Program-made: the position numbers and the translations under genes | Shown here: positions 4,248-23,779 of the stretch, one piece after another | How the letters are laid out: each line of letters begins with the position of its first letter | Position numbering within the stretch: the stretch's first letter is position 1 | NCBI GenBank assembly: GCA_024398595.1 | Contig: JAKSIX010000021.1 | Span: 1 to 40,181 of the forward strand | Direction: 5' to 3' | Length of the DNA stretch: 40,181 bases | Source: Bacteroidaceae bacterium | Lineage (GTDB): Bacteria; Bacteroidota; Bacteroidia; Bacteroidales; Bacteroidaceae | The notes under the pieces: model-generated | The model's database searches: none | What the model was told of the DNA's origin: nothing | What the model saw: the letters and a program-made list of their open reading frames with translations, nothing else

Positions 4248-5480
4248 ATGCACTCTATGAAAAAGTTTTTCCTGAACATACTGAAGTTACTGACCAGCAT
4301 CGTAGTATTCGCAATTACTGCTATTATTCTGTTCAGCATAAGCCCAATATATAATTTTGAAGAGCCAAGGCCTTTCAGTGGCCCGGACATCTTCAACCCG
4401 TACGCCCGGCTTGATACGGCAATCGGATGGAAGCGTGCAAATTTCCACACCCACACACAGGTGAAAGGTCTGTTCAACGAATGCAGGTTCTGGCCCGACC
4501 AGGTGGATGAGGCATACCGCAAATTCGGTTATGACATAGTCACCTTCTCCAATCACAACAAGCTGACCGTCCACCCATACGACCCGTCACTGCAGGTCAA
4601 TGTATATGAGCACGGCTACAACCTTTTCAAGTATCACAAGCTGGTCTTCGGATGCACCAAAGTCAATCATTTTGACCATTTCCTGCCACTTGTCGCATCG
4701 CAGAAACAATGGCAGCTGTTCTATCTCGGCAGGGATGCCGATTTCATACAGATGAACCATCCATACCGTACCAACAATACTACAGAACGCAGTTTCCGAT
4801 GGCTTACCGGCTATAGGATAATGGAACTCGACTCAGGGTGCGGCACTGGGCAGGAGTATTGGGACTGGGCATTGGATGCCGGACATTATTCATTCGGACT
4901 GGCCAATGATGACCTGCACTATCCGGACTGCAGCGACAGGATAGCTGTCCGCTGCAACATGCTGAACTGTGAGGGAGCAACATATCAGGACATAAAGGAG
5001 ACATTACTCTCCGGCGCGTACTACAGCATGCGCGTACCCGATTACGGCAACGGAGACTGGGATGTCAAATATCGGAAAAACAGTGAACTTCCCTATATAT
5101 GCGACATCGGTCTCAATGGCGACACAATATTCATGGCACTTTCCGCAAAAGCTTATGAGATAAGAGCTACCGGACAGGGGCACAGCCTCCTGAAATCACT
5201 GAACGACACGTGCGCATTCAGTTATGTGATGTGTCCGGAGGATACCTATTTACGCCTTACCGCATATTTCGATGACGGTGCCGTCATCTACTCCAACCCG
5301 TTCGCACGCTACGACAAATCACTTGCAGAGAGCCCGTACGTAGAGTCTGCGCATACTGTAAATATCGGGCTGACCGTACTCTTCAATCTTCTTGTGCTGT
5401 CACTTGCCGCAGGGGGGACAAAACTTCTTTGCCTGATATGGAGAAAGCGTAAGCCGGAATACCGGCGCCTTCTCAGTTGA
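4248..5480 (+). CDS. Membrane-anchored PHP-type metal-dependent phosphoesterase
   Basis: This 410-residue protein has a hydrophobic helix near each end (about 10-31 and 370-392), so the catalytic part probably faces the periplasm. The PHP-like metal ligands can be followed in order: His67-x-His69 (NFHTHT), His103 (FSNHNK), His171 (MNHPYR) and Asp222-x-His224 (NDDLHYPD). The family hydrolyses phosphoester bonds with a bi- or trinuclear metal centre; the substrate is unknown. Translation may begin at 4248 or at Met4 (4257); the latter gives a more usual leader behind the promoter box. Its 3' end overlaps the convergent EptA-like gene by 8 bp. This is one of only two plus-strand genes. Confidence 0.85.
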   Translation: MHSMKKFFLNILKLLTSIVVFAITAIILFSISPIYNFEEPRPFSGPDIFNPYARLDTAIGWKRANFHTHTQVKGLFNECRFWPDQVDEAYRKFGYDIVTFSNHNKLTVHPYDPSLQVNVYEHGYNLFKYHKLVFGCTKVNHFDHFLPLVASQKQWQLFYLGRDADFIQMNHPYRTNNTTERSFRWLTGYRIMELDSGCGTGQEYWDWALDAGHYSFGLANDDLHYPDCSDRIAVRCNMLNCEGATYQDIKETLLSGAYYSMRVPDYGNGDWDVKYRKNSELPYICDIGLNGDTIFMALSAKAYEIRATGQGHSLLKSLNDTCAFSYVMCPEDTYLRLTAYFDDGAVIYSNPFARYDKSLAESPYVESAHTVNIGLTVLFNLLVLSLAAGGTKLLCLIWRKRKPEYRRLLS

Positions 5481-7020
5481 AGATATTCATACTGTCATCA
5501 TATATGGGACTTTCCACTCCAAGGAAGTCCAGCACGCTGTGGAACACATTGTGCTGACTGAGCAGATCCGCATCGCGATACATCCCGTCCCCGTCAGAGC
5601 GCCATACAATAAACGGAATCTCGTACTGGCACGCCGGAGCAATTGCAATCGGCACACCATGCATATACAGGTTCTTCTCACCCAAAGACTCCCCGTGATC
5701 CGACACGAACATCATACAGCTCCGCCAACCTTCCAGCGACTTCAGGTCACTGATGATTGAGTCAAGCAGGTAATCAGTATATACGATAGTATTGTCATAC
5801 GCGTTTATCAACTGAGCCTTAGGACATTTCGACATTTCCACAGTGTTACATACCGGAGTGAACACCTCAAACTCCGAAGGATATCTGGTGTTGTACGACG
5901 GACCGTGACTTGTACTGGTATGCAGTATCACTAAAACCTTGCTGGTATCACTTTCCTCTATCTTTTCCTTGAGTCCCTCAATAAGAATTCCATCGTAACC
6001 GGCATCGGCACCGGCATACTCGGATTTGAGGTCACCGGCTTCTATATATTTCCCAATATGAAGCGGAGGCTGTCCCCAGTTACTTGTGCGCCATATAACA
6101 TCCACGCCGTTACGATACAGATAGTTCGGCAATATCTCGTACAGGTCATCGCTCTCCTTATACTCAAGCATAGCCTTCAATCCTGCGGTCGTATATGTAG
6201 CACTTGAGTTGGCCTTATACACCTTCAGTCCCTCCACCTTGGACAGGCGCGGGTTTGTCAGCCTGTCATAGCCATACAGCGAGAAATGATCCCTGCGTGC
6301 AGACTCGCCGATGACAAGGACCAGCACGGCTTTTTCATCGTTGGCAATCACGGCATCGGGCAGAATAATCTCCTCGCGGTTGCTTTCCCGCAATGCACTG
6401 CGATAGCGGAAGGTGTTTACCACATACGACCAAGGCAGCACCAGACTTCCCCCGACCGTTGAGTTCCTGTCAATCCACGGCCAGTTCGGCATATTGGCAA
6501 AAACTATCACCAGTGCAAACAGCAGTGAATAGCCTATATTCGCGAAGAACTGCTTCAGGGTACCGGATTTCAGCTTTACCATGAATATGAAAATACACGG
6601 TAGCACACCCATCAGCAGTATGTATAGCAAGGCCGATGGGGAATAATAGCTTGTCGCCTCCGAATAGTTGGTATTGAACACATTGCCCATCATACTGTCA
6701 TCTATCATGACATCGTATGTGGTAATGAAATAAAAGCCTATTGAGTTGCCGATGAAGAAAAAGGCCAGCAACATCCTACCCAAAATACGACCTATATACA
6801 ACAGCAGGTAGAATACCAGATAATTCAGGACCAGCATCAGAAGTCCAAGACTCCCGATTATGATGTAGCCGTTTATCCCACTCTCAACATTTTCGCATCC
6901 GTAACTGAAAAACGGGTAATGGAACAGCACCAGATTGACCAGACTGAGTACTGCCGCGAAGACGGAAAGCCGGACACCTTTCTGATGCCGGCTATCCCTA
7001 TAAGTTCTGTTCGTCCTCAT
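5473..7020 (-). CDS. EptA-like phosphoethanolamine transferase (sulfatase/alkaline phosphatase fold)
   Basis: This is a 515-residue inner-membrane enzyme of the type that adds phosphoethanolamine to lipid A or other glycans. About five N-terminal transmembrane helices (about 20-175) precede a periplasmic hydrolase domain. The domain opens with GESARRDHFSLYGYDRLTNP (metal ligand Glu239), followed by a Thr-rich SATYTTAGLK segment holding the likely nucleophile Thr278, His372 (HTSTSHGP), Asp441-His442 (SDHGESLGE) and His454 (YMHGVP). The pair of cysteines in VCNTVEMSKC is typical of the family. The start is the ATG at 7020, behind AAGGAGG; the longer frame begins with TTG. It is the last gene of the paaK unit. 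The acceptor is inferred from the family only. Confidence 0.9.
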   Translation of the reverse strand: MRTNRTYRDSRHQKGVRLSVFAAVLSLVNLVLFHYPFFSYGCENVESGINGYIIIGSLGLLMLVLNYLVFYLLLYIGRILGRMLLAFFFIGNSIGFYFITTYDVMIDDSMMGNVFNTNYSEATSYYSPSALLYILLMGVLPCIFIFMVKLKSGTLKQFFANIGYSLLFALVIVFANMPNWPWIDRNSTVGGSLVLPWSYVVNTFRYRSALRESNREEIILPDAVIANDEKAVLVLVIGESARRDHFSLYGYDRLTNPRLSKVEGLKVYKANSSATYTTAGLKAMLEYKESDDLYEILPNYLYRNGVDVIWRTSNWGQPPLHIGKYIEAGDLKSEYAGADAGYDGILIEGLKEKIEESDTSKVLVILHTSTSHGPSYNTRYPSEFEVFTPVCNTVEMSKCPKAQLINAYDNTIVYTDYLLDSIISDLKSLEGWRSCMMFVSDHGESLGEKNLYMHGVPIAIAPACQYEIPFIVWRSDGDGMYRDADLLSQHNVFHSVLDFLGVESPIYDDSMNIFN

Positions 7021-7021
7021 T

Positions 7022-8605
7022 CTATATTTCCTCCTTATCGACAAGTGTATCCGATGCGCGAACTGTCACGGTACGTTCATAGCACCCGAACATCTCCTCC
7101 ACAGCTTCCTTATTGCGGACAGGTGTTATGATACTGACTATTGGCACAATTACCAGACCTGCCACCATCGCCAATACACCGGCATTGATAGGTGATGAGA
7201 AGTATGGCGATATAAATGCAGTGTGGGTGAATGTGCCGTACATACAGGCGCACATTATGACTACGCCAACGATGAAGCTTACCCAGACCGATGCCGGGCT
7301 GGTACGCTTCCAGTACAATCCATACAGGAACGGAGCAAGGAAGGCTCCCGCCAGAGCACCCCAGCTTATACCCATAAGCTGCGCAATGAATGTCACTGAG
7401 CTCTTGGCCTGGATTATGGCCAGCACCGATGATACGGCGATGAAAAACAATACAAACATTCTGATGCAGGTCAGTACAGACTTGTCTTTCATTTCAGAAC
7501 CTCTTCTTCCGGCTACGGCAGGACGTATTATATCCAATGTCAGTGTAGAGCCTGATGTCAGTACCAATGATGACAGAGTTGACATAGATGCCGACAGCAC
7601 CAGAATTATCACGATGGCAATCATAACATCGGGAAGTGACTGAAGCATTGACGGTACTATGCTGTCATAGATCGGAGTGCCGTTGGCCGAATATTCTATC
7701 ACGGAACCGTACAAACGGCCGAAACCGCCAAGGAAATAGCATCCGCCAGCTACAACCAATGCGAACATTGTCGAAATGAACGTACCCTTGCGGATAGCGT
7801 TCTCATCGCGTATCGCATAGAACTTGCCGACCATCTGCGGAAGACCCCAGGTGCCGAGCGATGTCAGCAGAACAACTCCAAGCAAATATATCGGCTGAGG
7901 GCCGAGGAACGACACGAACGCTCCGTGCAGGGCCGGTGCTGACTCGGACTGGATTTCGGACAGGCTCTGCACAGCCATCTGGAAACCGCCGTTGCACTTC
8001 AGCACAGCCGCAATTACGGCACATATCCCTATCAGCATTATCATGCCCTGGATGAAGTCATTGATTGCCGTAGCCATATATCCGCCGACAAGCACATAAA
8101 CAGCTGTAAGTACCGCCATTCCGATTACGCACCAGGTATAGTCTATACCGAATGCCATTCCGAACAGACGTGACAGACCGTTGTACAATGAGGCGGTATA
8201 AGGTATCAGGAAGATGAAGACAATCACAGATGCCGCCACTTTGAGTGCAGATGAATTGAAACGCTCACCGAAGAAATCCGGCATTGTCGCACTGTGGAGA
8301 TGCTGGGTAAGCAGTCTGGTACGGCGTCCAAGTATTCTCCATGCCAGCAATGAGCCTATCAATGCGTTGCCTATACCTATCCAAGTAGATGCAAGACCAT
8401 ATTTCCACCCGAACTGACCGGCATATCCGACAAATATCACAGCCGAGAAATACGAGGTACCGAATGCAAAAGCGGTAAGCCACGAACCCACATTCCTGCC
8501 ACCGAGTACAAATCCATGTACGTCAGTTGCAGACTTGCGGCAGTAAATTCCAACGCCAATCATCACGGCGAAGAACAGTATCAGAAGCGCAATTTTCAGA
8601 AACAT
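7022..8605 (-). CDS. Sodium:solute symporter (SSS family)
   Basis: This 527-residue, highly hydrophobic protein has about 13 predicted helices and the SSS hallmarks: an N-terminal GGRNVGSWLTAFAFGTSYFS segment, unwound TM1 glycine-serine residues, and a conserved GYMATAINDFIQGMIMLIG region. It takes up an organic solute with sodium across the inner membrane. The ATG at 8605 is preceded by AGGA. It lies 44 nt after the ACT-domain gene with no terminator between them, and 1 nt before the EptA-like gene. Because the operon starts with an arylacetate-CoA ligase, an aryl carboxylate is a reasonable guess for the cargo. That is inference; proline, pantothenate and sugar acids are carried by relatives. 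Confidence 0.92.
   Translation of the reverse strand: MFLKIALLILFFAVMIGVGIYCRKSATDVHGFVLGGRNVGSWLTAFAFGTSYFSAVIFVGYAGQFGWKYGLASTWIGIGNALIGSLLAWRILGRRTRLLTQHLHSATMPDFFGERFNSSALKVAASVIVFIFLIPYTASLYNGLSRLFGMAFGIDYTWCVIGMAVLTAVYVLVGGYMATAINDFIQGMIMLIGICAVIAAVLKCNGGFQMAVQSLSEIQSESAPALHGAFVSFLGPQPIYLLGVVLLTSLGTWGLPQMVGKFYAIRDENAIRKGTFISTMFALVVAGGCYFLGGFGRLYGSVIEYSANGTPIYDSIVPSMLQSLPDVMIAIVIILVLSASMSTLSSLVLTSGSTLTLDIIRPAVAGRRGSEMKDKSVLTCIRMFVLFFIAVSSVLAIIQAKSSVTFIAQLMGISWGALAGAFLAPFLYGLYWKRTSPASVWVSFIVGVVIMCACMYGTFTHTAFISPYFSSPINAGVLAMVAGLVIVPIVSIITPVRNKEAVEEMFGCYERTVTVRASDTLVDKEEI
7030..7036 (-). promoter_or_regulatory. Strong ribosome binding site for the EptA-like gene
   Basis: The minus strand reads AAGGAGG with 9 nt to the ATG at 7020. 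It is formed by the last Lys-Glu codons of the upstream symporter gene. Such a strong Shine-Dalgarno is rare in Bacteroidetes. It fixes the start at 7020 and implies coupled translation. Confidence 0.75.
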
Positions 8606-10410: not shown

Positions 10411-10446
10411 AAAAAAAAAGACCTGCCCATTCTGTGGAGCAGGTCT
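10411..10446 (-). terminator. Attenuator terminator in the paaK leader
   Basis: On the minus strand AGACCTGC and GCAGGTCT form an 8-bp stem (10446-10439 with 10426-10419), extended by CCA/TGG past one bulged base. A run of eight further T residues (10418-10411) follows. This is a textbook intrinsic terminator, but it sits between the promoter and the start of paaK, so it would abort transcription before the operon unless an alternative fold forms. Confidence 0.85.
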
Positions 10447-10488
10447 CTTGTTATCCCATCATGCAATAACAGCACACCGACCAGCCCC
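10436..10488 (-). promoter_or_regulatory. Candidate antiterminator of the paaK attenuator
   Basis: GGGGCTGGTC (10488-10479), which begins 4 nt after the leader stop codon, can pair with GACCTGCTCC (10445-10436), the 5' arm of the terminator. Nine of ten positions pair, one of them G-U, with a single U-U mismatch. A 6-bp TGTTAT/ATAACA hairpin (10471-10466 with 10454-10449) fits inside the loop. Formation of this structure would break the terminator. Upstream, leader codons 4-6 (AGCCACACC, 10525-10517) can pair with GGTGTGCT (10478-10471), a possible protecting fold. Confidence 0.65.
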
Positions 10489-10492
10489 ACGA

Positions 10493-10534
10493 TTACGTGC
10501 GGTAATAATAGTAATAGGTGTGGCTGAAATTCAT
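10493..10534 (-). CDS. Tyrosine-rich leader peptide of the paaK attenuator
   Basis: This is a 13-codon frame, MNFSHTYYYYYRT, with five tyrosine codons in a row (TAT TAC TAT TAT TAC) and a TAA stop. An in-frame ATG at 10543 could lengthen it to MIIMNFSHTYYYYYRT. It starts 6-15 nt after the transcript start predicted from the promoter at 10555-10585. It ends directly before a strand that can disarm the downstream terminator. By analogy with the pheA, trpE and his leaders, a ribosome stalled at uncharged tRNA-Tyr would allow read-through into paaK. No homologue of this exact peptide is known to me. The position, codon run and terminator together make chance unlikely. Confidence 0.82.
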   Translation of the reverse strand: MNFSHTYYYYYRT

Positions 10535-10554
10535 AATTATCATTTTTCTGCTTG

Positions 10555-10585
10555 CAAAGTTATACGCTTTTTGATATTCTGCAAA
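10555..10585 (-). promoter_or_regulatory. Promoter of the paaK operon
   Basis: TTTG (10585-10582) and TAACTTTG (10562-10555) are separated by exactly 19 nt, an excellent match to the Bacteroidetes promoter. The transcript would start near 10549, just before the leader peptide. Confidence 0.8.
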
Positions 10586-10604: not shown

Positions 10605-10663
10605 TGAACAGGGGACAGGTTCCGTTCACCGGAATCCGGTGAACGGAACCTGTCCCCTGTTCA
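10605..10663. repeat. Perfect 28-bp inverted repeat, REP/REPIN-like
   Basis: Arms 10605-10632 and 10636-10663 are exact reverse complements with a 3-nt loop (AAT). The arm contains GGGGACAGGTTCCGTTCACC. It begins 1 nt after the TolC stop codon. GGGGACAGGTTC-type palindromes resemble REP sequences mobilised by IS200-like REP-associated tyrosine transposases; this link is from memory of the family. No T-run follows on either strand, so it is not a classic intrinsic terminator, although so strong a hairpin would shield the 3' end of the efflux mRNA. Confidence 0.8.
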
Positions 10664-20251: not shown

Positions 20252-21580
20252 TTAGAACTTGTGTGCCTCGTTGAACAGGCGCAGACGCTCGTCAAGTACG
20301 GCGAACTGATCCTCACGGATATACGATGAGCTTCCGCGCAGTCCCTGACGCGCACTTCCGGTTGATGACAGTACTATGCCGCTGACACCATAGTAAAGCA
20401 ACTCGTGCAGCAGCTGTCCGCCCTCCATAGGAGTGCCGTCCGGCAGATTGTACCCGAACGTGAAGAAGAAGCCTCCGCCGACAGGTTCATCAATATCCTT
20501 GTCGTATGTGATGTTGAAGCCGTTCTTCAGCATAATCTCCTTGATACGCCTGGTGTTACGCTCATACAGACGTATGTCCTCGCGGAAGTTGTACTTACCG
20601 TCAACAGCAGCCTTCATCATTGCAGCCATAGCATACTGGACTGAATGGGTCACGCCCGATGACATCGTATAGAGCATCACGAACGCATACGCCGCACCGA
20701 AGCGCGAGATACCGTAACGGCTGCGAAGGGCCTCGAAACTGCGTTCATACAGTTTGTCCGAGATACAGGCTACAGAGATACGCTCACCGGCATAACTGAA
20801 TATCTTCGATGCGCTGAGCATCATCATATAGTTGTCAGTGTATCGGGACACAGTTGCCTGATACGGTGGCTGCCACGGAATACCAAGCCCGTCACGGCGG
20901 AAGTCCATGGTAAAGTATGCCAGATCCTCCACAATCACGGTATCATACTTCGTGGCCATTTCACCTATAATCTGCAGCTCACCCTCTGTAAGACACATCC
21001 AGGTAGGGTTGTTCGGATTGGAATATATTATGCAGCAGATATTGCCCTTGCTGAGAAAGCCTTCCAACGTATCTCTGAGCTTCTCACCACGATTGTCCGC
21101 AAGGTCAAACGATGCCTTTTTTAGCCCTAAGACCGAGGCCTGCATTTTCTGGACAGGGAAACCCGGATCAATATACAATATGGTATCCCTCTCCGGGCAA
21201 AGTTGCGAGCAAAGCATAAACGCGGCAAAAGTGCCCTGCATAGTTCCACAGGTAGGAGTGCAATGTTTGGCCTCGATGTCTGTGTTCAGGAAAGCCTTGA
21301 CGAAGCGCGATGCCTGCGTACGCAGGTCAGCAATACCTGTTATATCAGGATAAATGGACGGTACACCACGGTCAAGCGCCACTTTTTGGGCCTCAACGCC
21401 AATAGCCGAAGGCGGAAGTCCCGGCATACCCATTTCCAAATGTATGAACTCTTTCCCTGTGACATTCTCTGCATTCCAGACGGTCATCAGCACCTGACGG
21501 ATTGAGGCTCTGTTCAGATCAGTAACCTCCATCTCACTGAGGAAATCATCAATGACCTGTCTTGGTATCAACGTATCCAT
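20252..21580 (-). CDS. PLP-dependent class I/II aminotransferase, probably aromatic or branched 2-oxoacid
   Basis: This is a 442-residue fold-type I aminotransferase. YSNPNNPTW (186-194) binds the cofactor, Asp219 in VEDLAYF is the pyridine-N ligand, the Schiff-base lysine is Lys259 in SASKIFSYAGERI, and Arg267 contacts the phosphate. It is longer than typical AspC and resembles valine-pyruvate/aromatic aminotransferases. It starts 8 nt after iorB. In that context it would interconvert an aryl-pyruvate and the amino acid. The exact substrate is not provable from sequence. Confidence 0.9.
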   Translation of the reverse strand: MDTLIPRQVIDDFLSEMEVTDLNRASIRQVLMTVWNAENVTGKEFIHLEMGMPGLPPSAIGVEAQKVALDRGVPSIYPDITGIADLRTQASRFVKAFLNTDIEAKHCTPTCGTMQGTFAAFMLCSQLCPERDTILYIDPGFPVQKMQASVLGLKKASFDLADNRGEKLRDTLEGFLSKGNICCIIYSNPNNPTWMCLTEGELQIIGEMATKYDTVIVEDLAYFTMDFRRDGLGIPWQPPYQATVSRYTDNYMMMLSASKIFSYAGERISVACISDKLYERSFEALRSRYGISRFGAAYAFVMLYTMSSGVTHSVQYAMAAMMKAAVDGKYNFREDIRLYERNTRRIKEIMLKNGFNITYDKDIDEPVGGGFFFTFGYNLPDGTPMEGGQLLHELLYYGVSGIVLSSTGSARQGLRGSSSYIREDQFAVLDERLRLFNEAHKF

Positions 21581-21588
21581 TACAACAG

Positions 21589-22161
21589 TTATTTGCAGTT
21601 CCTTCCTATCTCCAGAGCCCTGATATTCATATCGATGACAGCCTCGCCCTTCGATGCGAATATCGTCTTTACACTGTCACAGATATTCTCAAAGCTGACA
21701 CAGGACAAAGCTCTTGACGCAGCTCCCAACAATATCATATTGACGGCCTTAACCATTTTATTCTCACTGCCAATCATATTCGTATCAATGAGAATAACAT
21801 TCTTTGACTCGCGGAGTTCCCTGTATATATCCTCTAATTCCGGATAGTCCTTGATATTGACCAGCGGATTCGATGATGTTATAATCCAGCCATTCTCGCT
21901 GAGCATCTCACGGTTACGCAGAGCCTCCATGGGCTCCATTCCGATAATCACATCAGCCTGTCCGAGAGATATAAGGTCACTCGCAATCGGTTTGTCTGAT
22001 ATACGTAACGTAGCCTGTACATAACCTCCGCGCTGACTCATTCCGTGAACTTCGGCCTGCTTGATATACAAACCCTCCTTAAATGCAGCCTGCCCTATCA
22101 CCGTGGCAATAGAGAGAATGCCTTGCCCGCCGACACCGGCCAATACTATATCAGTTTTCAT
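21589..22161 (-). CDS. iorB: Indolepyruvate:ferredoxin oxidoreductase beta subunit
   Basis: This 190-residue protein corresponds to the gamma domain of pyruvate:ferredoxin oxidoreductases. GVGGQGI (9-15) and the signature EVHGMSQRGGYV are present, and the length is normal. With IorA it converts aryl-pyruvates and CoA to aryl-acetyl-CoA with reduction of ferredoxin, or runs in reverse. The ATG at 22161 lies inside the end of iorA (11-nt overlap), which implies translational coupling. Confidence 0.95.
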   Translation of the reverse strand: MKTDIVLAGVGGQGILSIATVIGQAAFKEGLYIKQAEVHGMSQRGGYVQATLRISDKPIASDLISLGQADVIIGMEPMEALRNREMLSENGWIITSSNPLVNIKDYPELEDIYRELRESKNVILIDTNMIGSENKMVKAVNMILLGAASRALSCVSFENICDSVKTIFASKGEAVIDMNIRALEIGRNCK

Positions 22162-23764
22162 TTCCTTGATTTTTAGCTTTTTGCTTTGCCTTACGTGTCA
22201 GAGTCTGAATACACTCGCGACGCGGTATTATCACAGACAAGCCTTTATACTCAATCTCCTCACGAAGTGTGCGTGTTATCTCCTCCATATTCTGAGGCAG
22301 AGGTACTACAACCTTAAGATGTTCTGAATCCACACCTAATCCACGACATATAGCCTCAAACTTATTGGTACCCGCAGAATCCTGACCTCCAGTCATTGCT
22401 GTCGTCAGATTATCGGAGATGATGACCGTGATAGGCGCATTCTCATTGACAGCATCAAGCAGACCGGTCATACCGGAATGGGTGAAGGTACTGTCGCCTA
22501 TTATAGCTACGGCAGGGAACACACCTGCATCGGCAGCACCCTTGGCCATCGTGATGGACGCACCCATATCGACAGTACTGTCCAAAGCCTGATATGGTGG
22601 CAGAGCCCCCAATGTATAACAACCTATGTCACCGAATACCTTCGCATCCTTATAATCCTTGAGTACAAGGTTGATTGCCTCATACACGCTTCTGTGACCG
22701 CAGCCCTGACAGAGTGATGGCGGACGATTTGCAACGTGCTGCGCCACATCCGCGTGAGGCAGGATGTCAAGACCGAGAGCAACCCTTATAATATCCGGAT
22801 TAAGTTCACCCTGACGCGGAAGCTCACCGGTCAGACGGCCTATTATGCGACATTCCGTCGGAAGGATTCCTGCAAGCTGTTCCTCGACAAACGGCTGACC
22901 GTCCTCTATAATCATAATGGAATCGCACTGCTCAGCCATTGTACGAACAGTTCCCTGAGGAACAGGATACTGTGACAATTTCAATACCGGGAAAGGAATA
23001 CCGTCAGGATAGCACTCTGACAAGTAATTATATGTATTGCCACAGGCAACCGCGCCTATCTGGAAGCGTTTCGCCGGAGCCTTGAACATATTGAACGGAG
23101 ATTCCTCCGCCAGCTTGCGTATCTCCGGCTGACGCTCTATAAGTCCTGCGTAACGACGACGCGCTATAGCCGGCAGCAGTACCCAATCACGGGTTCCGTT
23201 TACAGGATTAAGAGAATTCTGCTCACGCTGAGGCTGCATTTCAATGACAGCGCGTGAATGAGCCAGTCTTGTGACGGTACGCATCAGAACAGGAAGCTTC
23301 AGCGATTCCGACATATTATATGCATACGACATCATATCGTATGCCTCCTGCTGTGTTGACGGCTCAAGGATCGGCAGCATGGCAAACTTGCCATAGAAAC
23401 GTGTATCCTGCTCATCCTGCGACGAATACATTAAAGGGTCATCAGCAACCAGCACTACGATTCCACCGTTAACACCGGTTATCGATGAGTTTACAAACGG
23501 ATCAGCAGCCACATTCATACCTACGTGCTTCATACACACCAATGCCCTCTTGCCTGCAAATGACATTCCAAGCGCGGCCTCCATAGCCGTCTTCTCATTG
23601 GTACACCAATGATTATGTAATTTGGCACCAGTAGCCGCACAATAGCCCTGAATATACTCAGTTATCTCTGTTGACGGCGTTCCTGGATATGCATAGACAC
23701 CACTAAGTCCGGCATCAATCGCACCCTGGGCAATAGCCTCATCGCCTAATAGCAGTTTTCTCAT
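22151..23764 (-). CDS. iorA: Indolepyruvate:ferredoxin oxidoreductase alpha subunit, without C-terminal ferredoxin domain
   Basis: This 537-residue thiamine-diphosphate enzyme subunit has an N-terminal pyrimidine-binding domain (MRKLLLGDEAIAQGAIDAG, YPGTPSTEI), a domain II/linker (about 200-340) and a C-terminal PP domain with LCQGCGHRS (352-357) and the thiamine motif GDSTF...DN (423-452). Archaeal and clostridial relatives carry a C-terminal two-[4Fe-4S] ferredoxin domain. Here the chain ends about 20 residues after VIIPRREC in a basic tail, with no CxxCxxC cluster motif. The ATG at 23764 is preferred over the TTG at 23770. It follows the GH8 gene by 15 nt. Confidence 0.93.
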   Translation of the reverse strand: MRKLLLGDEAIAQGAIDAGLSGVYAYPGTPSTEITEYIQGYCAATGAKLHNHWCTNEKTAMEAALGMSFAGKRALVCMKHVGMNVAADPFVNSSITGVNGGIVVLVADDPLMYSSQDEQDTRFYGKFAMLPILEPSTQQEAYDMMSYAYNMSESLKLPVLMRTVTRLAHSRAVIEMQPQREQNSLNPVNGTRDWVLLPAIARRRYAGLIERQPEIRKLAEESPFNMFKAPAKRFQIGAVACGNTYNYLSECYPDGIPFPVLKLSQYPVPQGTVRTMAEQCDSIMIIEDGQPFVEEQLAGILPTECRIIGRLTGELPRQGELNPDIIRVALGLDILPHADVAQHVANRPPSLCQGCGHRSVYEAINLVLKDYKDAKVFGDIGCYTLGALPPYQALDSTVDMGASITMAKGAADAGVFPAVAIIGDSTFTHSGMTGLLDAVNENAPITVIISDNLTTAMTGGQDSAGTNKFEAICRGLGVDSEHLKVVVPLPQNMEEITRTLREEIEYKGLSVIIPRRECIQTLTRKAKQKAKNQGNEN

Positions 23765-23779
23765 CCTCAATTATAAAAA

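Follow-up and report, generated by a model that had tools for sequence, protein, structure and literature searches.

A 175 bp stretch on the minus strand of the window (the 40,181 nucleotides of Bacteroidaceae DNA analysed here) is very likely an attenuator sensing charged tyrosyl-tRNA, and the pathway under its control is most likely the one leading from 4-hydroxyphenylacetate to tyrosine. Sequence support for the switch is strong, nearly the most that sequence by itself can give, the covariation of the antiterminator being its weakest link. The leader, its promoter and its terminator are flanked by a TolC-like and a PaaK-like gene. An earlier note on this DNA had claimed a Bacteroidetes promoter, a 13-codon leader with five Tyr codons and a terminator before paaK; all were found on the minus strand, and its coordinates were right. 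The elements, in window coordinates and with their evidence in brackets, are as follows.

10585-10582, minus strand: −33 promoter element TTTG, 19 nt from TAnnTTTG (sequence)
10562-10555, minus strand: −7 promoter element TAACTTTG, matching TAnnTTTG (sequence)
10534-10493, minus strand: leader open reading frame MNFSHTYYYYYRT, 13 codons, from the ATG at 10534 to the TAA at 10493 (sequence; Tyr-run leaders in relatives)
10526-10517, minus strand: segment 1, the 5′ arm of helix P1, CAGCCACACC, with one base bulged, in the codons before the Tyr run (fold; comparative)
10516-10502, minus strand: control codons, five consecutive Tyr (sequence; shuffle test)
10502-10496, minus strand: 5′ arm of helix P1b, CCGCACG, spanning the final base of the Tyr run and the Arg-Thr codons (fold, alignment, comparative)
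10491-10485, minus strand: 3′ arm of P1b, CGTGGGG (RNA CGUGGGG), overlapping the antiterminator strand, with one mismatch in P1b (fold, alignment, comparative)
10490-10479, minus strand: 5′ strand of the antiterminator, GTGGGGCTGGTC (RNA GUGGGGCUGGUC) (ribosome model, comparative, fold)
10478-10470, minus strand: 3′ arm of P1, GGTGTGCTG (RNA GGUGUGCUG), directly behind the antiterminator strand (fold; comparative)
10471-10465, minus strand: 5′ arm of the inner antiterminator helix, TGTTATT (RNA UGUUAUU) (fold)
10455-10449, minus strand: 3′ arm of the inner antiterminator helix, GATAACA (RNA GAUAACA) (fold)
10449-10411, minus strand: intrinsic terminator, with its hairpin at 10449-10416 and nine T at 10419-10411 (sequence; 7-pair core stem paired in relatives)
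10445-10434, minus strand: GACCTGCTCCAC (RNA GACCUGCUCCAC), the 5′ arm and loop of the terminator and also the 3′ strand of the antiterminator (comparative, fold)

The −7 element is identified by TAnnTTTG, which we take to be the Bacteroidetes promoter consensus. Two bases separate the leader stop codon from the start of the antiterminator strand, and GTGGGGCTGGTC is complementary to GACCTGCTCCAC except for one U-U mismatch and one G-U pair; the pairing of a post-stop strand with the 5′ arm of the terminator, proposed earlier, was recovered with a strand two bases longer than claimed (10490-10479, not 10488-10479). The inner helix UGUUAUU/GAUAACA, P1 and P1b are pairings absent from the earlier note, and P1 and P1b are two sequestering pairings in the minimum-energy fold, able to hide or crowd the antiterminator strand. 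For the leader RNA the folding energy is −47.9 kcal/mol (z −4.2), equalled by none of 200 shuffles; for the antiterminator segment alone, inner helix included, it is −25.5 kcal/mol (z −3.6; again 0 of 200). A run of five TAY triplets is present a single time in the window and was absent from all 100 shuffles. There is a second in-frame ATG at 10543, giving a possible 16-codon peptide; the nearest relative (locus L039) has GTG there. The terminator ends 30 nt before the paaK ATG (10380).

A sigma-70-like site at 10407-10379 was set aside, 1 being found against 0.5 expected; the sigma-70-like type is not the promoter type of this phylum, which is a further ground for setting it aside. Between the TolC-like gene and the promoter, 10611-10657 is a long inverted repeat with two exact arms, GGGGACAGGTTCCGTTCACCGG. 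Among 315 loci it was found, beyond the window's own, only in those of the nearest relative (L039/L129), and it may be a terminator or a mobile repeat.

Of the 335 loci obtained by scanning named genomes, the best 80 were taken, and 33 of these (L039-L069, L071, L076) carry a paaK with 79% or more identity to that of the window. The 33 loci belong mostly to rumen, horse and other gut Bacteroidales assemblies, one of them named Candidatus Colenecus caballi. A leader with Tyr run, antiterminator and terminator precedes paaK in 14 of the 33 named same-genus loci, in sequences that have diverged, and this conservation supports the reading as ribosome-mediated attenuation that the earlier note had given. 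The leader was found in none of the 47 more distant loci among the best 80 of 335, two of which (L078, L108) have less than 160 nt of upstream sequence, and a model search of the 66 leaderless loci returned none at E 1. An ORF filter had flagged 22 of the 80 loci, 8 of them unrelated ORFs by inspection. Examples of the paaK leaders are MRVNSYIGYYYYYYRT, MKFYVTSNYFYYRD, MESFYTSYFHYYYRN and MYNLNNSYYYYYYRTPNGVS; the weakest, MKGNGYTAYSYCSLT of L040, has Tyr, Ser and Cys codons. In 14 of 15 leaders TAnnTTTG starts 26-36 nt upstream of the leader's start codon.

The covariance model R1, built from the paaK leaders, identified 16 leaders among the 37 genomes of the genus, all with E-values of 1.6e-12 or lower and with paaK next; two of the 16 (L127, L133) are outside its training set, and the 14 of 33 named loci and the 16 of 37 genomes are largely the same assemblies. 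The paaK leader of genome G163 appears as L129, which equals L039, and L129, L138, L141, L142 and L146 lie at contig ends. In three genomes (G162, G174, G175) the leader could not be placed, and in 18 of the 37 paaK is present and the leader verifiably absent. In 16 of these 18 leaderless genomes, TAnnTTTG lies no more than 46 nt from the start of paaK. Relatives with paaK and without the leader, which the earlier note had regarded as evidence against an attenuator, do therefore occur, but the deepest branches of the paaK trees carry the leader and at least four changes of state are needed, so loss fits better than artefact (L047 was left out of one paaK tree, and G133 entered the other with 24% of its columns). 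The distribution suggests a leader that was ancestral in the genus and was lost several times, where change counts cannot tell gain from loss.

These 18 of 37 relatives would also suit a chance short ORF beside the terminator of the upstream transcript, or a plain terminator. Such an origin is hardly credible given that promoter, Tyr run, antiterminator and terminator are conserved together, the terminator with compensatory changes, and that the Tyr run exceeds chance expectation.

In a MAFFT alignment of 15 leaders (14 distinct), the 7-pair core stem of the terminator is paired in 100% of cells and 6 of its 7 pairs are changed on both sides, while P1b is paired in 73.5% of cells. Antiterminator cells are paired in 63.0% vs. 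59.6 in shuffles (13 of 500 as high), with slid versions reaching at most 48.3; covariation is 0.129 vs. 0.089 in shuffles (3 of 500 as high), and the pairs changed on both sides number 6 vs. 5.0 (193 of 500 as high), pairing and covariation counts alike being taken on an antiterminator alignment in which some rows are visibly shifted. Of the co-variation that the earlier note had proposed to look for in relatives, the compensatory changes of the terminator are clear, but the antiterminator covariation is weak by the stricter measures. Read sequence by sequence, all 16 leaders contain an antiterminator helix, 6 to 13 positions long when one mismatch is allowed. In 13 leaders it starts at a distance of 3 to 7 nt from the stop codon's first base, and in the other 3, which are longer, it starts within the leader itself; its paired changes include UGGGG/CCCCA to CGGGG/CCCCG. 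The arms of P1 vary widely in sequence and score a mean of 17.8 as own pairs vs. 13.9 as cross pairs (sd 3.2, 224 cross pairs); P1 was rejected as a strict requirement, since the own-pair and cross-pair scores overlap.

To model the ribosome, the RNA was masked as far as 12 nt beyond the first base of the A-site codon, and the remainder was folded, cut before the 3′ arm of the terminator; this cut point was chosen after the result of equilibrium folding. With the full terminator, equilibrium folding of the window leader favours the terminator at every ribosome position and gives no switch, and the switch must therefore rest on the order of transcription. Folding of the two states, suggested by the earlier note as a check, accordingly yields the antiterminator at Tyr in the truncated transcript but not at equilibrium. 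Sixteen leaders were modelled, L069 being left out as near-identical to L060. The mean probability of upstream pairing for the 5′ arm and loop of the terminator was 0.73 when the ribosome sat on the last three Tyr codons; for a ribosome at the stop codon it was 0.24, and with no ribosome 0.44. Antiterminator pairing was higher at Tyr than at the stop codon in 16 of 16 paaK leaders (window 0.65 and 0.24, and 0.29 with no ribosome), so that, in transcripts cut before the 3′ arm, the claim that a Tyr stall frees the antiterminator and a ribosome at the stop codon disfavours it holds in every leader modelled. Ribosomes before the Tyr codons also favour the antiterminator and ribosomes behind them do not, the pairing dropping within one to two codons after the last Tyr in most leaders.

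When the segment behind the Tyr run was shuffled (60 times per leader), the mean stall values lay below the observed value in 16 of 16 leaders. The fraction of shuffles reaching the observed stall value was 0.00-0.10 (window 0.10) and the fraction reaching the observed difference 0.00-0.15 (window 0.10), which gives the modelled switch of the window leader, taken alone, modest support. In seven relatives (L039, L040, L050, L060, L063, L127, L133) the ribosome-free antiterminator is about as likely as the stalled one (0.66-0.91), and termination without translation is therefore not uniform. The model scores the window leader alike for a stall at any position from codon 1 through the last Tyr (0.59-0.65), as would be expected if the leader sensed general translation stress, for example from antibiotics, and not Tyr. 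The codons before the switch make this very improbable, being mostly Tyr in paaK leaders and Phe, Trp, His or Leu/Ile in leaders with other products.

We infer that in cells the tyrosine-sensing attenuator would switch as follows. When tyrosine is ample, the ribosome at the leader stop codon would cover the antiterminator strand, or would leave and let P1 and P1b sequester it; the terminator would then form, and the transcript would end after about 135-140 nt (counted from a start inferred from the promoter). When tyrosine is scarce, a ribosome stalled on the Tyr run would cover the Arg-Thr codons and so block P1b, and the freed GUGGGGCUGGUC would pair with the 5′ arm of the terminator before its 3′ arm is made, allowing paaK, the ACT gene and the symporter gene to be transcribed. 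Tyr starvation would in this way switch on the synthesis of tyrosine from 4-hydroxyphenylacetate.

The identity of the leader codons, and its change with the downstream gene, is the reason for taking Tyr as the signal. R1 also picks up other leaders, and their codons agree with what the downstream gene encodes. Within the genus, MKAINAYFYYFWFTRQYAG and its kin (Phe/Tyr/Trp) precede DAHP synthase (10 read), MFDARYYRYYYYRCFENGRS (Phe/Tyr) precedes the prephenate dehydratase gene of G167, MNFSAHHHHHTSR (His) stands before hisG, MRLLGLIIILSIIIIPGFRCEKA (Leu/Ile) before leuA and MKRNAQSFFFFWWRLTEFPGSVG before a TrpB-like gene. Among the 13 weak R1 matches in the genus that were read, the leader is absent from L262, L264 and L265. 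The candidate attenuators of the genus before pheA, hisG, leuA and DAHP synthase genes include L256, L257, L258, L259, L260, L261, L266, L267 and L272.

At the level of the family, 78 of 151 genomes have an R1 match at E 0.1. The 22 loci read outside the genus (L150-L171) include 4 Tyr leaders before an SSF symporter gene alone and 16 Phe/Tyr leaders of the pheA type; 2 of the 22, L155 and L160 at contig ends, are without a call. The SSF-only Tyr leaders (e.g., MLFNISKKYYYYYYYRTLTVGL) belong to two further genera, g7 and g22, and Pfam confirmed the downstream gene in 4 pheA and 2 SSF cases. In the order, 23 of 295 genomes have an R1 match at E 0.001, and 15 of 22 order-level loci resemble leaders. 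Tyr-rich leaders stand before class I/II aminotransferases in L277, L280, L282 and L283, and before a prephenate dehydrogenase-like (tyrA-like) gene in L285, below the model cut-off; of the 22 read, L279 and L289 are not leaders, and L276, L287, L293, L296 and L297 are cut by contig ends. In the ribosome model, cognate codons exceeded the stop codon in 4 of 4 SSF leaders, 10 of 10 DAHP synthase leaders and 14 of 14 pheA-type leaders, and in all 14 further leaders giving a value, narrowly in L267 (0.42 vs. 0.34); L272 has no T-run and gave no value. Judging from the related leaders of the Tyr, Phe/Tyr, Phe/Tyr/Trp, Phe/Trp, His and Leu/Ile types, control of this kind seems widespread in the group.

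The genes of the proposed pathway in the window are the following.

10380-9079, minus strand: PaaK-like arylacetate-CoA ligase (TIGR02155, 467.4 bits; PF14535, PF00501)
9066-8650, minus strand: ACT domain pair protein (PF19571)
8605-7022, minus strand: SSF sodium:solute symporter (PF00474)
23770-22151, minus strand: IorA-like indolepyruvate ferredoxin oxidoreductase alpha subunit (TIGR03336, 519 bits, below the cut-off of 651)
22161-21589, minus strand: IorB-like beta subunit (NF005324, over cut-off)
21580-20252, minus strand: class I/II aminotransferase beside iorAB (PF00155; no NCBIfam match at 1e-20)

PaaK scores under the equivalog cut-off of TIGR02155 (467.4 vs. 646.3 bits) and is a related protein whose substrate is predicted only. 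An arylacetate-CoA ligase operon, as the earlier note had it, is present as paaK-ACT-symporter, but in the window iorA, iorB and the aminotransferase gene lie together at 20252-23770, separate from the paaK operon and about 10 kb away from it. All six are together in the attenuated operon of G104, in the order paaK-ACT-symporter-iorA-iorB-aminotransferase, and six of the 16 genomes with a leader (G088, G104, G153, G157, G161, G165) have iorA directly after the SSF gene. By gene content, an operon of the G104 type would encode the full route from an arylacetate to an aromatic amino acid: 4-hydroxyphenylacetate would be taken up, converted to its CoA ester by PaaK, reductively carboxylated to 4-hydroxyphenylpyruvate by IorAB and transaminated to tyrosine. 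The ACT domain pair (PF19571) adjoins this ligase and also the second ligase in G158; it is a possible feedback sensor of the pathway. Directly behind the symporter gene, at 5473-7044, is an EptA-like phosphoethanolamine transferase gene (NF007160, over cut-off), which perhaps shares the symporter's transcript though its function is unrelated.

An SSF relative is present in 37 of 37 genus genomes, and in g7 and g22 a Tyr leader precedes an SSF gene alone (the 4 loci above, 2 of them Pfam-confirmed). Both facts would also fit a genuine attenuator that serves mainly the uptake of tyrosine or other aromatics by the symporter, with paaK and the ACT gene as co-transcribed passengers. We consider this unlikely, if a real possibility: in this genus the leader precedes paaK, iorA directly follows SSF in the 6 of 16 leader genomes, and an arylacetate symporter fits the same facts.

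We further infer that 4-hydroxyphenylacetate is the substrate and that PaaK and the IOR enzyme run towards amino-acid synthesis; the argument for the direction is genetic, since attenuation opens the pathway when its product is short. IOR-type enzymes are reversible, which counts for the opposite view of a catabolic operon converting aromatic amino acids to arylacetates and sensing Tyr for some other reason. Phenylacetate production by B. fragilis, described in PMC11304471, points the same way. An attenuator opening at scarce charged tRNA-Tyr would, however, raise the consumption of tyrosine during tyrosine starvation, and the other resolved R1 leaders precede biosynthetic genes or an SSF symporter, so that a catabolic role is improbable. 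The anabolic argument concerns mostly rumen and hindgut Bacteroidales, for which the direction of the pathway and the substrates of the ligase paralogues become testable.

The genome of the window, 98.4% complete, gave no match to PF00800 (pheA) or PF02153 (tyrA), and neither did G104, G164 and G165, where the leader is present, or G173, where it is absent. In G163, the closest relative, tyrA is present along with a fragment of PF00800, and the absence in the window's genome could therefore be an assembly gap. Loss of tyrA in G024 and G178 was rejected, as the contig of G178 ends inside the DAHP synthase gene and that of G024 starts 2.7 kb before PF00800, less than the tyrA distance in G119. 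Across the 37 genomes the paaK leader (16) and the leader-type DAHP synthase operon (22) overlap in 4 and are both missing in 3 (Fisher p 0.0005; 0.0014 without the 3 genomes with an unplaced leader). This reciprocity is not claimed, because the transitions are few: there are 2 independent pairs on starred branches, and the sign test is not significant. On the same ground we do not claim an association of the leader with absence of PF00800, which is missing from 8 of 37 genomes, 7 of these 8 with the leader (p 0.012, uncorrected).

The genus has a second ligase that shares 44-47% identity with the first; in the 9 genomes examined (L317-L325) it is not preceded by a leader with a run of Tyr, Phe or Trp. 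In L316 (G158 C26:9300-17000), an operon of TrpB-like protein, second ligase, ACT protein and thioesterase stands behind a Phe/Trp leader, FFFFWW, and this single case suggests that the second ligase of G158 acts from phenylacetate to Phe or from indoleacetate to Trp. Leader codons could, as these cases suggest, tell the substrates of paralogous arylacetate-CoA ligases apart, with Tyr for the first one. Tentatively, and short of calling it probable, we propose a Tyr-dedicated attenuator on a complete arylacetate-to-amino-acid operon, in which 4-hydroxyphenylacetate salvage would be the regulated, perhaps sole, source of tyrosine where pheA and tyrA are missing, and leader codons would predict the substrates of ligase paralogues. 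G173, leaderless and without PF00800 and PF02153, counts against the main reading of a tyrosine-sensing switch for tyrosine synthesis.

The mode of control is known from the pheA, trp and his leaders; the amino acid and the pathway appear to be new. The order of segments 1 to 4 is identical to that of the trp, his and thr leaders, and in E. coli trpL Arg-Thr comes right behind the Trp codons, as it does behind the Tyr codons here. The leader is a weak match to Thr_leader RF00506, below threshold (30.0 bits vs. gathering 55; E 0.096). Rfam at the gathering threshold gave 0 matches in the window, and no T-box or riboswitch; at the gathering scores of release 15, 0 of the 16 leader loci searched matched, L256, L257, L259, L261, L266 and L267 among them. 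The pheA and pheST leaders of gamma-proteobacteria combine a leader peptide rich in the cognate residue with alternative antiterminator and terminator structures and control by ribosome stalling. The window shares this leader-peptide logic, but has Tyr in place of Phe codons, an arylacetate-CoA ligase as target and a Bacteroidales host.

The Tyr T-box senses uncharged tRNA-Tyr by direct binding of the tRNA, with no leader peptide. Both systems are RNA-level control of tyrosine genes, whereas the window has a leader peptide and no T-box match. PMC1262725 names phenylalanine attenuators and describes RNA-level regulation of tyrosine genes by the Tyr T-box of Firmicutes. Within the Bacteroidetes, control of amino-acid operons by leader-peptide attenuation is strongly indicated for Flavobacterium psychrophilum (PMC9723704), and short ORFs in long 5′ UTRs of B. 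thetaiotaomicron are reminiscent of leader peptides (PMC7366714); in contrast to the window, the parts of these two sources available name neither a Tyr leader nor an operon with paaK or IOR genes. No recognisable description of a Tyr leader-peptide attenuator in Bacteroidetes was found in the open-access full texts searched. If true, the attenuator would be the first described Tyr-specific one with a leader peptide and the first for an arylacetate-CoA ligase, as judged from open-access literature, most subscription papers lying outside it. Rumen bacteria make phenylalanine from phenylacetate (Allison 1965, cited in PMC7356843), a route described in the available part of PMC7356843 without regulation. 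The conversion of an arylacetate to an aromatic amino acid is shared with the window, where the Tyr codons of the leader point to 4-hydroxyphenylacetate.
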